A DNA stretch of 34,674 bases from Microbacteriaceae bacterium (GCA_947443745.1 CANEXL010000008.1:1-34674); one strand, 5' to 3'. Shown: positions 21,678 through 26,050, counted from the stretch's first letter. Program-made: numbers and translations. The notes: generated by a model not told the origin, from the letters alone.

Positions 21678-21699
21678 AAAAAAGTTTAGCCCGGGGCTA
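21678..21699 (-). terminator. Putative intrinsic terminator overlapping the nucleotidyltransferase stop codon
   Basis: On minus strand TAGCC-CCG-GGCTA followed by AACTTTTTT; short (5-bp) stem. Confidence 0.4.
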
Positions 21700-22797
21700 T
21701 TTGTGAGTGCTCATTTTAAAGAAACCTTTCAGCCCCTGTTCATGAAGCTCTTGCCGCGCTCCCCGCAGGTACAGCGATAACGCGCGAGCCCGAAGAGGGA
21801 CAGCATTTCGAGGAACCGCGTCGTGAAGGCCCAATTGCCTCACGATAAGTGGCTGCTGCACGGTGAGCATCAGAAGTCGACTCAGAAAAATGCTCGATGT
21901 GTTCTTGGAAATGTCGAGCAACGTTATTGCCCGAGGGCTGCGCAGCGACGAGAGTGCATCCAGAACCTGCGACGGCACCGCTACGTGATATTTCTCGCGA
22001 AGCACGCGTAATTGACGTGTCACGGGGCGAGCCCAGCCGAGGGAACGAACCTCGCTGACGAAGAGCTCCCAATCGATTGTCGTCTCCGCGATAAGAAGCG
22101 ACGCATCCAGAACCCACCGGATGGGCGAGACCTCATTGCGTGCAGCACCATGCATGAGCGTGTGCAGCATGTGGTCGGTGGGGGAGAGCGTGAATGCCGC
22201 GAAACCAGAGACGGTCACGGCAACTTTGCGCGCGAAGAGCCGGTCTTCGAAACCAGGGTCCAACATCCCCATGTACAGGCCCCACTGCAGGTCGACGGCC
22301 TCCGTGCCGCGTTGCATGTTGATGCCAATTTTGTTATTGAGAAAGATGTCGGGACTCTTGTGGCCATCGGCCCGAAAACCCGCGGCGGCCAGTTTTTTAT
22401 GAACGGATGCTCGATCCTGCTGCCGAACCAAAATGTCCATGTCGTCACAGGGTCGCGTCGGCGGATCGGACCCATAGACCAGGGTTTGCAAGGCTAGGCC
22501 CTTCAAAATGAGGTAGTCCTCAGGTTGCAGAATGGTATTCACCGACGTGAGCGTCGGCATGCCCTGCACATTGAACAGGTACCAATACCGGGTGTAGATG
22601 CCCTTGAGAATGCCGTGATTGCGGGCGGTAATCCCGAGTCGTTCGAGTTTGCGATACAGATAAGGAACCAGTCGCTGGGAGCCACCGTCGATGTCATCCA
22701 TGGGCACAACGCGTTCCCACTCGCGCAGAGCGGCCTCGGTGTCTTCAGGCGCGGCAAGGCAAGCAGCGACGACCAGATCTTCGGGGATAACGCTCAC
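21697..22797 (-). CDS. Nucleotidyltransferase family protein (NTP_transf_5-like)
   Basis: PTRPCDDMDILVRQQDRASVHKKLAAAGF catalytic-region pattern, DLQWGLY and LSPTDHMLHTLMHGA segments characteristic of this family. Confidence 0.8.
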   Translation of the reverse strand: MSVIPEDLVVAACLAAPEDTEAALREWERVVPMDDIDGGSQRLVPYLYRKLERLGITARNHGILKGIYTRYWYLFNVQGMPTLTSVNTILQPEDYLILKGLALQTLVYGSDPPTRPCDDMDILVRQQDRASVHKKLAAAGFRADGHKSPDIFLNNKIGINMQRGTEAVDLQWGLYMGMLDPGFEDRLFARKVAVTVSGFAAFTLSPTDHMLHTLMHGAARNEVSPIRWVLDASLLIAETTIDWELFVSEVRSLGWARPVTRQLRVLREKYHVAVPSQVLDALSSLRSPRAITLLDISKNTSSIFLSRLLMLTVQQPLIVRQLGLHDAVPRNAVPLRARALSLYLRGARQELHEQGLKGFFKMSTHK

Positions 22798-22832
22798 GAC
22801 TCGACGCTCACGACTCGACGCTCACGACTCGA
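22791..22832 (-). repeat. Perfect 14-bp tandem repeat x3 at GT2/nucleotidyltransferase junction (minus-strand unit GTCGAGTCGTGAGC)
   Basis: Copies at + strand 22791-22804, 22805-22818, 22819-22832; each contains GTGA stop/start overlap. Confidence 0.97.
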
Positions 22833-23517
22833 CGCCCCGGCGGTCAGCATTTTCCGGATGCCGGAGGCGAATCAGGTCAAAGAATTTGTCGTAGTTTCCG
22901 GCGCGGCGAGAAACGTTGGCGGCGTGGATGCGACGCCGGGCGAGGAGGTCATCAATGCGGACGATCTTCAATCCTTTGTCGTGGGCGCCGAGATACCAAC
23001 GCGCCCACGAGTGGTTATCGCCGTCCATCGGACCGAACGAAGCGAAGGCCGAGCGCCGCACAATCGTCGCCGAATTGATGGGTGCCGTCAGTGTTGTGCC
23101 GAGATGACTGAAGCGCGCTGTTCCTTCGGCGTATCCGGGGTCAATGAAATTGACGATTGTGCCGTAGGCAAGATCAGCATCAGATTGCAGGAGGGCTCGC
23201 ACGAGAGTGCTCACGGCCGCGGGCTCGAGCAGGTCATCGTCGTCGAGAAAATAGAGAATTTCTCCGGTCGTCGCAGCCAACCCGGCAGTTCTGGCAACCC
23301 CAATGCCCGGGCGGTCTGCAATCGTGTGCGGTATGGCGTTCTCCACCAAGTACTCCAGCGTTCCATCCGTGGAATGACCGTAGGCAACAAGAAAATCAAT
23401 ATTTTCATAATCTTGAGCACGCACACTGGCAATCGCTTGGATCAAAAACTCTCGCCGCTCCTGGGTCGGGATGACGACGCTCACGTGAGGCAGGGTGTTG
23501 GCTATGGAGGAACTCAT
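22822..23517 (-). CDS. Glycosyltransferase family 2
   Basis: PHVSVVIPTQERREFLIQAIASVRAQDYENIDFLVAYGHSTDGTLEYL...ILYFLDDDDLLEP; ATGA overlap with upstream GT4. Confidence 0.9.
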   Translation of the reverse strand: MSSSIANTLPHVSVVIPTQERREFLIQAIASVRAQDYENIDFLVAYGHSTDGTLEYLVENAIPHTIADRPGIGVARTAGLAATTGEILYFLDDDDLLEPAAVSTLVRALLQSDADLAYGTIVNFIDPGYAEGTARFSHLGTTLTAPINSATIVRRSAFASFGPMDGDNHSWARWYLGAHDKGLKIVRIDDLLARRRIHAANVSRRAGNYDKFFDLIRLRHPENADRRGVES

Positions 23518-24632
23518 GGTGTGGTGATCCCCTCGTACAGGGCGAGGTAGCTCGCCACACAGGCGTCAAGAGAAAAGGTTTCAACGGCATCGCGGCGGGC
23601 CTGGGCGCCAAATGTCGTGGCTGCCGCAGGATCTGTCGCCATGAAATACAGCGTCGCCGAGAGGTCAAAGATATCTCCCGGCCGAAACAACATGCCGTTT
23701 TCTCGATGGTGAACAACTTCGGGAAGTCCGCCGGAGCGAGAAGCCACGACAGCCCTGCCCGCCATCAGCGCTTCGGCAGCCACGAGCCCGAAGGGCTCCT
23801 GCCAGATGGACGGCACCACGACGAAATGAGAGTTTTTCAGATGGTCGGCGATGTTCGCTCGGGATGTCCAGCCGAGAAGTTCGACGCTTTCCTCAAGCCC
23901 GAGATGGCGAATGTAGCGCTCGAGAGCTACTCGCTCAGGGCCTTCGCCGGCAATCTTGAGCCGAGCAGGGCCGATGCGAGGAAGCAGTGTGGACCATGCC
24001 GAAAGAAGGACTGGGAACCCTTTTTCGGGGGAGAGACGCCCCGATGCAAAGACCTGCAGATCAGTGGTCGGTGGTGGTTGGGGAACGGGGCGTTGGGCGA
24101 CGCCATTCAGGATGAGGTGCGTGCGGTGCCCAAGTGCCGGGAAATGGCGCAAAAAATCATCGAAGACGAATCGTGAAACGGCCACCACCGCATCACTGAT
24201 GTCGTTGGGTAAAGCGAGGAGCGCGAGATATGTAGGCGTGGGATTGTCGACGATGTTGTGCAGAGTGTGCACCACCTTTGCCCCCGTGGCAACTTTGATG
24301 GCCTTGAGGAGAAGGGTGTCTTGTCCGCCAGCATTGTGAAAATGAATCACGTCGGGCGCAAATTCCGTCGCAATTCGATTCATCTGCGACGAAACGACAT
24401 GAAGCCCGTGCGCCCCGAGGGGCCCTTTCATCGCCGCAAAGTTAAAGCGGTGGATGGGTGGGCCGTCGGAGGCGTCATCCAGAACGTAGGGCGGGTCATC
24501 CGGGGAGGACGTTTGGGCAAAAATGAGAACGTCGTTTCCCCCGCGACTCATCGCCGACGAAATATCGTGAACGAAGTTCTCGCGCCCTCCTTGGACGGGG
24601 AGGTAGGGGAACGCCCACTGCAAAATCTTCAT
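23514..24632 (-). CDS. Glycosyltransferase family 4 (GT-B)
   Basis: MKILQWAFPYLPVQGGRENFVHDISSAMSRGG, LSPEKGFPVLLSAW, VVPSIWQEPFGLVAAEALMAGRAVVASRSGGLPEVV. Confidence 0.93.
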   Translation of the reverse strand: MKILQWAFPYLPVQGGRENFVHDISSAMSRGGNDVLIFAQTSSPDDPPYVLDDASDGPPIHRFNFAAMKGPLGAHGLHVVSSQMNRIATEFAPDVIHFHNAGGQDTLLLKAIKVATGAKVVHTLHNIVDNPTPTYLALLALPNDISDAVVAVSRFVFDDFLRHFPALGHRTHLILNGVAQRPVPQPPPTTDLQVFASGRLSPEKGFPVLLSAWSTLLPRIGPARLKIAGEGPERVALERYIRHLGLEESVELLGWTSRANIADHLKNSHFVVVPSIWQEPFGLVAAEALMAGRAVVASRSGGLPEVVHHRENGMLFRPGDIFDLSATLYFMATDPAAATTFGAQARRDAVETFSLDACVASYLALYEGITTP

Positions 24633-25624
24633 GAGTCCACCAGGTTCGCTACTTTGTTGAGGGCCGGTCGCAGGTCGGGGGTCACGACCATGGAATAGAG
24701 CGGGATCTCGCGGGTGAGATTCTTGAGCGCCTGCAGGGTTCGCGCGGGGTGCATGCCCATGCCCAGTGAATTGGGAGCGAGCGCGGCGATGACAGCGTCA
24801 ACGCCCACGGCCGAAAAAGAAAATTTGGCACCCACGGTGGGAACCACAATCGCGGTGATTTTTTGGCGTGGTGTCATGGCATCCGGTGCAACGCTGTCAA
24901 GAAAAAAGAGATCCTTGTCCTCGCCCTCTTCGAGCACGTGAGGGGCGTAAGAAGACCACGCCGGGCTCGACTTCGCCAACTTGAGGGTCTTGAAAATTGA
25001 GAACAGTTCGTGATTTTGGCGAGCCCGAACGTTGGAATCAATCAGGAGAAAGTCGTCGCCGAGCGACGTGAATCCTTCAAGAACTCCGGCCGCAACGAGC
25101 GAGGACTTACCAGATCCGCCACGATTCGTGATGAGAATGCCGTTTTGATTGTTTCCGAGTGTCCCGCCGTGCACGGAGTCCAAGGACAGCTCAGCCAGAA
25201 ATCCCTGCAGGACGACACGCATATATTCGGGACGTGTGAGCAGTTGCTCCGTCACTGCCGCAATCACCAAAACGAAGATCTTCGTGTCTTCATTCCAGAA
25301 AAGAAGAGAGTGAGAACTTCCAAAGTACTGGCAGGTCACAGCACCGTCGCTCAGCCTCGGGGAGTGCCAGCGCCAGGGGATGCGCTCAACGGGAATGTCC
25401 GTATCTTCGCGAAAAACCACTAGAAGTCGCGTCTCTGGCGTTGCGTCGTCCGTGGTGATGAGGTGACTCATTGTCTGGAGGAACGAATTCAATCGCTGAC
25501 GTTGTGACGTTTCAACCGAGACGACGTGATGACCGAACTGGGCAGAAGCTTTCACGGTTGACGCGCCATCAAAGCTGTCGACGAGTTGTTGGTAATAGGG
25601 AGCAACCCCCGGTGTTGTCATCAC
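24629..25624 (-). CDS. HprK-like (HPr kinase/phosphorylase-related) P-loop protein
   Basis: LDSVHGGTLGNNQNGILITNRGGSGKSSLVAAGVLEGFTSLGDDFLLID: H-x-G, P-loop and GDD pattern as in HprK-related kinases; GTG start overlaps PqqD-like stop. Confidence 0.75.
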   Translation of the reverse strand: MMTTPGVAPYYQQLVDSFDGASTVKASAQFGHHVVSVETSQRQRLNSFLQTMSHLITTDDATPETRLLVVFREDTDIPVERIPWRWHSPRLSDGAVTCQYFGSSHSLLFWNEDTKIFVLVIAAVTEQLLTRPEYMRVVLQGFLAELSLDSVHGGTLGNNQNGILITNRGGSGKSSLVAAGVLEGFTSLGDDFLLIDSNVRARQNHELFSIFKTLKLAKSSPAWSSYAPHVLEEGEDKDLFFLDSVAPDAMTPRQKITAIVVPTVGAKFSFSAVGVDAVIAALAPNSLGMGMHPARTLQALKNLTREIPLYSMVVTPDLRPALNKVANLVDS

Positions 25625-25962
25625 CGGAGCTTGGGCCAGCCGTCTTCGTCGACTTCGTGGATGGGATCGGCGAGGAGCAACTCGCTCATCTCCGTGTATT
25701 TGAGAAAGGCGATGCTGGCATCGACGGCGGTATCCGGGAGAGGCACGGCGTCACCTTCGAATACTCCCTCGGTCGTCATCAGAGAAAGAACAGAAACCTC
25801 CTCTGGCGAGAACGTGTTTTCTCCCGCCAGAACTTTGGCCCAGACCGCTCCGCCCAGCGGCGTCAGGGAGTAGTAGGCGCCCGTCCTCAGATTGATGAGG
25901 ATGGTGTCCTCACCAATGGTGTCCCCGATGAAGTCCCGAGATTGGGTCATTCTAAAAGCCAT
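25621..25962 (-). CDS. PqqD-like protein (candidate RiPP recognition element/peptide chaperone fold)
   Basis: TILINLRTGAYYSLTPLGGAVWAKVLAGENTFSPEEVSVLSLMTTEGV...: PqqD-type pattern (hydrophobic beta hairpin, YYsLn-g-a-iW). Start 25962 or 25950. Confidence 0.75.
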   Translation of the reverse strand: MAFRMTQSRDFIGDTIGEDTILINLRTGAYYSLTPLGGAVWAKVLAGENTFSPEEVSVLSLMTTEGVFEGDAVPLPDTAVDASIAFLKYTEMSELLLADPIHEVDEDGWPKLR

Positions 25963-25973
25963 TTACCGAGCAT
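25947..25973 (-). other. Possible leader micro-ORF (MLGKWLLE*) coupled to the PqqD-like gene
   Basis: Minus strand GAGGA-AGAT-ATG CTC GGT AAA TGG CTT TTA GAA TGA; TGA overlaps in-frame ATG (25950) of PqqD-like ORF. Confidence 0.3.
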
Positions 25974-26050
25974 ATCTTCCTCAGAGAAACAACAGCAGTT
26001 GCGTTGGGCGTTTTCTTTGCGAGATTTCCATCAGATAGATGGATCGCCCT

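Follow-up and report, generated by a model that had tools for sequence, protein, structure and literature searches.

The DNA considered here is a stretch of 34,674 nucleotides from a Microbacteriaceae bacterium (GCA_947443745.1, CANEXL010000008.1:1-34674; hereafter the window), in which five open reading frames (ORFs) were confirmed at 21697-25962, the span given by an earlier note made from the sequence alone. These genes, and the repeat described below, all lie on the minus strand. The first gene (25621..25962) encodes a PqqD-like protein of 113 amino acids, assigned by family profile and AlphaFold2 (AF2) model to the recognition elements (RREs) of ribosomally synthesized and post-translationally modified peptides (RiPPs); its second helix is shortened, and its residues 89-110 carry a conserved tail block, YTEMSELLLADPIHEVDEDGWP (25633..25698), recognized by a tail profile and by column statistics over 81 relatives. 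The remaining genes encode a kinase of 331 amino acids with a predicted HprK/PEPCK fold (24629..25624), a family 4 glycosyltransferase (GT4) of 372 amino acids (23514..24632), a short family 2 glycosyltransferase (GT2) of 231 amino acids (22822..23517), and a nucleotidyltransferase-like protein of 366 amino acids belonging to NTP_transf_5 (PF14907; 21697..22797). Three of the junctions are 4-nt overlaps (GTGA, ATGA, and ATGA), while the fourth, as read directly in the sequence, consists of a 14-nt repeat (GCGTCGAGTCGTGA) present in triplicate (22794..22835), with a GTGA stop-start in each copy. As 14 is not a multiple of 3, the number of copies determines whether the GT2 and NTP_transf_5 genes overlap. 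RNA folding upstream of the operon is unremarkable (z -1.2).

Among the enzymes, GT4 (PF00534, E 1e-33; PF13439 was also used for its assignment), GT2 (PF00535, E 5e-21) and the NTP_transf_5 protein (E 1.7e-29, 103.6 bits vs a cut-off of 31.2) all pass their Pfam cut-offs, the last being the sole PF14907 match in its own genome. The motifs of NTP_transf_5 (KG 99-100 and D-x-D 119-121), the DDDD motif of GT2 and the E-x7-E motif of GT4 are intact; no solved structure related by sequence was found for NTP_transf_5. The HprK-like protein scanned singly falls below the Pfam cut-off, and its family profile matches HPr kinase (1jb1, E 1.6e-7). Its AF2 model (predicted local distance difference test, pLDDT, 92) is closest in Foldseek to PEPCK (E 8e-10) and then to HprK (E 4e-6), and the catalytic motifs are kept, namely H152, the Walker A motif GGSGKS (169-174) and GDD (189-191). 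With the His, Walker A and DD all present, sequence and model place this protein in the HprK/PEPCK superfamily.

RREs are the peptide-binding domains of RiPP pathways. Scanned singly, the window PqqD-like protein reaches 14.8 bits, below the PqqD Pfam cut-off of 23.4, and because of this divergence a PF05402 search of its own genome returns nothing at E 0.001; typical relatives lie above the PF05402 cut-off (56.8 vs 23.4). A profile built from 81 relatives matches the lasso peptide RREs TbiB1 (E 3e-18), PbaB1 and TfuB1 as well as LppB (9x8z, E 6.8e-7), and the AF2 model of the window protein (pLDDT 81) finds TbiB1 as its best PDB matches, the Foldseek match being moderate (best E 2e-3). The winged helix-turn-helix fold of an RRE is thus predicted firmly from the family profile together with the model, and weakly from the single protein. 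Overall, Pfam, family profiles, and AlphaFold with Foldseek bear out the five gene assignments of the earlier note, including the structural comparison that it suggested (an RRE fold, moderately matched, for the PqqD-like protein and a PEPCK/HprK fold for the HprK-like protein), and the overlaps and the tandem-repeat junction agree with its view that the genes form one unit.

Relatives of this gene set were first found via the kinase alone, most of them with an adjoining PqqD-like gene, and in those of the matching kinase subfamily the PqqD-like protein ends in a conserved C-terminal tail. When 84,980 species genomes were scanned for the tail together with PqqD, 378 loci emerged, the best 80 of which were analyzed; they include Actinomycetota, Acidobacteria, Cyanobacteria, Chloroflexi, Nitrospirota, Proteobacteria, Deltaproteobacteria, Bacteroidetes, Verrucomicrobiota, Lentisphaerae, Chlamydiae, Gemmatimonadaceae, and others, comprising cultured cyanobacteria (Oscillatoria, Chamaesiphon) and many uncultured lineages. 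By profile annotation, the kinase can be found in 69 of the 80 loci, GT2 in 71, NTP_transf_5 in 57, an ABC exporter in 37, and GT4 in 19. Among the 53 loci with at least 8 kb downstream (well-covered loci), the corresponding counts are 49 for the kinase, 50 for GT2, 42 for NTP_transf_5, 28 for an MsbA-like exporter, and 13 for GT4, with the kinase, GT2, and NTP_transf_5 occurring together in 42/53. A natural kinase-GT2 fusion is seen in eight loci (e.g., L089:14731-16539), and accessory neighbors include sulfotransferases, sugar epimerases, and methyltransferases. The kinase subfamily has 39 full-length matches in 33 cassette genomes, each on a contig that also carries a tail nearby, weaker matches being partial P-loops only; as the profile used was itself derived from cassette members, this shows absence elsewhere and is not an independent discovery. 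Judged by sequence, the five window genes are therefore one member of a conserved cassette found in many phyla. In a separate observation, the PqqD region of one locus (L019, genome G516) is bracketed by two HprK-like genes, and glycosyltransferase, carbamoyltransferase-like, and dTDP-sugar isomerase genes are nearby.

The hallmark of the cassette is a PqqD-type RRE with a long and highly conserved C-terminal tail, [YF][TS]DMQDLLLLDPIHEVD..GWP, in which a flexible linker is followed by F/Y-x-x-P-x-L and then by the block [KR][YF][TS]DM[QE][DE]LLLLDPIH[ED]VD..GWP. The scan pattern fixed the block core, at offsets -5 to +4; outside these forced columns the block averages 3.1 bits per column vs 1.9 in the domain (81 relatives). 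In its own genome the window protein is the sole match of the tail profile (E 1.5e-16), and the 38 tail matches in the 33 genomes, one or two per genome, are all PqqD proteins, which rules out a second tail-bearing protein there. The residue at offset -9 is T/S in 71/81 relatives and D/E/A/R in 10/81, nearly all ten with the kinase present, so Thr at this position was rejected as an obligatory phosphosite and the block is unlikely to act as an obligatory Ser/Thr phosphosite.

The motif ahead of the block resembles a leader. In crystal structures of LppB, PbaB1, TbiB1, and TfuB1 with their leaders, [Y/W]xxPx[L/V/I/F/A] occupies the RRE groove (PMC13381572), and this is the leader motif of the precursors of lasso peptides and of linear polyphosphorylated peptides (LPPs) (PMC13381572, PMC10368454). 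In 79/87 tails of the cassette, [FYW]xxP, mostly as [FY]xxPxL, precedes the block with the spacing of the leader motif (aromatic at -18, Pro at -15), and the groove residues Y39, I48, F/L83, L87, and L92 (PbaB1 numbering) are conserved. D70 of LppB hydrogen-bonds the leader Tyr, for which Phe has no equivalent hydroxyl. At the D70 column, chosen beforehand from the structure, Asp is present in 5/12 proteins with a tail Tyr at -18 vs 1/66 with Phe (Fisher 2e-4); the pairing has four independent origins (clade-preserving p 7.5e-4) and, apart from the motif itself, is the best of 577 column-residue tests. Moreover, the proteins with a shortened groove helix (the window protein, L020, L021, L022, L027, and L189; six proteins in about four lineages) are all devoid of [FYW]xxP, a motif present in nearly all of the other proteins; an automatic 2-by-2 table of helix and motif gives p 1e-6 with a slightly different length cut and with L190 misplaced, its helix being intact by eye. 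These patterns suggest that the tail motif probably latches into the RRE's own groove in most relatives. Regarding the block, the part of the LPP leader past the motif makes no contact with the RRE and has been proposed to contact the modifying enzymes; by analogy, the block may contact such enzymes in cis. The earlier note had overlooked the hyperconserved tail, the leader-like motif of the relatives, and the MsbA-like exporter of about half of them.

In the infB-rbfA-truB region, the cassette is flanked by mutY and a small 2TM-domain gene. These two genes directly adjoin each other in the one other genome of the genus compared, and a 4.36-kb segment of the window (21691..26050) has no counterpart at this site: that genome reads ..CCGTCCTAG joined to GCTAAAACCATGG.., the window cassette being inserted at the join, and the agreement extends to the mutY stop and resumes at GCTAAA. 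As the tail is present in only 4/400 genomes of the family, the window cassette was more likely acquired by horizontal transfer than lost from the sister; its GC content, overall and at third codon positions, is near that of the neighboring genes and therefore bears no mark of transfer. Co-conservation of the five genes in related genomes, which the earlier note had made a condition of its reading, fails when taken literally, but it holds across phyla, where the same partners occur wherever the tailed PqqD protein does, so that the cassette itself is co-conserved. A defense-system or phage origin was also considered and rejected: none of the window proteins has a match in PADLOC, nor do the three that were tested have one in PHROG.

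The earlier note rightly recorded that the cassette has no linked precursor, lasso cyclase, or B2 protease, and the co-occurring small ORFs that it proposed to look for did not emerge: no small ORF family is conserved in the 80 loci, with the sole exception of one trio of close cyanobacterial relatives. The 2057 small ORFs from uncovered locus DNA gave no family beyond close relatives either, and a hidden precursor was dropped as a candidate. In 75/79 loci the gap that follows the PqqD gene does not exceed 59 nt, and the window operon leaves no room for a separate precursor, within a search limited to closely linked small ORFs. The bait-like tail of the RRE may itself explain the lack of a separate substrate gene. 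In one actinobacterial relative, a 183-amino-acid protein with an LPXTG-type anchor (PF00746) is encoded directly upstream of the PqqD gene (L020:8247-8798, plus strand) and is a possible linked acceptor.

The closest described system is that of the LPPs, lppA-K-B-S-D-N (PMC13381572, Nat Commun 2026). The window cassette likewise has a discrete RRE of LppB type, a predicted HprK-like kinase, and an NTP transferase, and its relatives share with LPP loci an MsbA-like exporter (in 28 of the 53 well-covered loci), glycosyltransferase-rich surroundings, and the LPP motif in the form [FYW]xxP. However, no LppA precursor with the YxxPxVLxHQxIxFETxxS motif can be found in the window operon, the SpI-type leader peptidase and MsbA-like exporter are missing from the window cassette, the motif is on the RRE's own tail, short GT2s are core members, and LPPs are mainly from Bacillota whereas the cassette is found in many phyla; the 25 Pfam families most common in 112 other neighbors of the relatives include no peptidase. 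With the precursor, peptidase, and exporter lacking, the window cassette is not filed as an LPP system. Lasso clusters of the paeninodin/pseudomycoidin type also combine a PqqD-type B1, an HprK-type kinase, an NTP_transf_5-type N protein, and often an ABC exporter (PMC8498205, PMC9266682, PMC10368454), but the window cassette has neither their precursor nor the B2 peptidase and Asn-synthase-like cyclase, none of which is among the common neighbors of relatives either, and the RRE tail is new; a lasso identity was rejected for want of cyclase and B2. As a side observation, in four loci (L023, L026, L028, L029) the genes for an HprK-like kinase, a tail-less PqqD, and a Transglut_core3 (B2-like) protein are neighbors, no lasso cyclase was recognized among the genes checked, and L023 continues with a DUF2079 membrane protein. 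The HPr-rel-A and HPr-rel-B cassettes (NCBIfam TIGR04352, TIGR04355) have in common an HprK-related kinase, but scores are far below the cut-offs (TIGR04352, 21.8 bits vs 200); the window kinase belongs to a subfamily other than HPr-rel-A, and the link to HPr-rel-A in the earlier note is not supported. Those cassettes presumably pair the kinase with PqqD-like and nucleotidyltransferase genes. SynChlorMet (ScmC/ScmD, TIGR04249/TIGR04248) is weakly matched by the kinase and PqqD proteins of relatives, but below the cut-offs, and no radical SAM enzyme is present in the window cassette. Searches of open-access papers under CC0, CC BY, and CC BY-SA licenses turned up neither the tail sequence nor the gene set.

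Taken together, these data give roughly even chances to an RRE-scaffolded phospho-glycosylation pathway, in which the tail motif is latched in its own groove in most relatives. The RRE would end in a flexible linker, the leader-like [FY]xxPxL, and the ultra-conserved block, and the latched motif would offer this block to the partner enzymes in the manner of the C-terminal portion of a leader bound to the RRE. The HprK-like kinase would phosphorylate an acceptor, the NTP_transf_5 protein would add a sugar (hexose) or nucleotide to that phosphate, as PsmN does in pseudomycoidin, the GT2 and GT4 enzymes would extend the sugar unit, and an MsbA-like pump, where present, would export the product; the window member would have lost the latch while keeping the block and all catalytic motifs. 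The chemistry, the order of steps, and the export are inferred by homology; in lasso pathways the kinase phosphorylates a peptide Ser and PsmN adds hexoses (PMC8498205, PMC9266682). Phosphorylation plus sugar chemistry, as in the earlier note, stays the best guess. Candidate acceptors are the RRE tail, a peptide or protein encoded at an unlinked site, and a glycan or metabolite. Several points weigh against this pathway. The window PqqD protein, with its short helix and no FxxP, itself has no latch, and as it retains the block, the block has a role of its own. The AF2 confidence of the tail is low (54-59), the Tyr-Asp test has just 12 Tyr sequences, and when the labels were shuffled 100 times the best p over all columns was lower once. 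The invariance of the core is partly imposed by the scan, although the core is also seen in six kinase-first relatives (L018-L022, L027) that are free of this bias. Six loci (L050, L051, L052, L070, L095, L035) have an ABC exporter and a tailed PqqD without the kinase, so serving the kinase is not a necessary role of the block; these loci variously have AMP-binding/PP-binding, methyltransferase, and sulfotransferase genes, which form an alternative set of partners for the tail. Finally, we know of no enzyme activity for the cassette's kinase subfamily.

Other explanations differ mainly in what is modified. The tail could itself be the substrate, the RRE being fused to its own precursor and the block serving as a scaffold peptide for a phospho-sugar, comparable to the conserved cofactor and scaffold peptides known from other pathways. 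The high conservation of the block, the leader-like motif directly preceding it, and the confinement of the tail to PqqD proteins, with no other linked substrate, would fit, but the block has no universal Ser/Thr/Tyr, a helix N-cap explains the pattern at offset -9, LppK acted on Ser only, neither on Thr nor on Tyr (PMC13381572), and no conserved peptidase is nearby, which makes this unlikely. It is somewhat less doubtful that a peptide or protein substrate is encoded elsewhere and that the tail is a pseudo-leader closing the groove until the real leader displaces it, though we would still not expect it: separate precursors are the substrates of all relatives known for this RRE type (PMC13381572), auto-inhibition agrees with a cis motif bound in the groove, and the LPXTG-like surface protein of L020 would be of the right kind, whereas neither a small ORF conserved across loci, outside the cyanobacterial trio, nor a second tail-bearing protein was found, this last search covering tail-bearing substrates only.

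The acceptor might also be a surface glycan, a lipid, or a metabolite, with the RRE as a mere scaffold. The many glycosyltransferases, sulfotransferases, NDP-sugar epimerases, and methyltransferases nearby point that way, as does the closeness of the kinase model to PEPCK, a small-molecule enzyme; RREs, however, otherwise mark peptide pathways and the pairing of kinase and NTP_transf_5 is known from peptide tailoring, so that a non-peptide acceptor appears improbable. Decay of the cassette after transfer into the window genome would account for the loss of the FxxP motif and of part of the groove helix, and for the separation of GT2 from NTP_transf_5 by the 14-nt repeat, but the five frames are open, the catalytic motifs, overlaps, and tail block are kept, and the helix and motif losses are common to other actinobacterial relatives (L020, L021, L022), making it very unlikely. 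The boldest reading, to which only a small probability can be given, is a precursor-less RiPP-like system of many phyla in which the RRE would be its own leader and the tail a reusable scaffold or attachment site for a phospho-glycan assembled on it and then exported.

RREs are currently viewed as domains to which separate precursor peptides dock. If the reading proposed here is true, a cis leader motif beside a block that outconserves the fold would mean that the RRE inhibits itself, scaffolds in cis, or serves as its own substrate, and the cultured cyanobacterial hosts make the cassette amenable to testing. The tail meanwhile provides a name tag by which hundreds of loci can be found and annotated, and phosphate-and-sugar tailoring by HprK-like kinases and NTP_transf_5 proteins would, if true, reach far beyond lasso peptides and LPPs.

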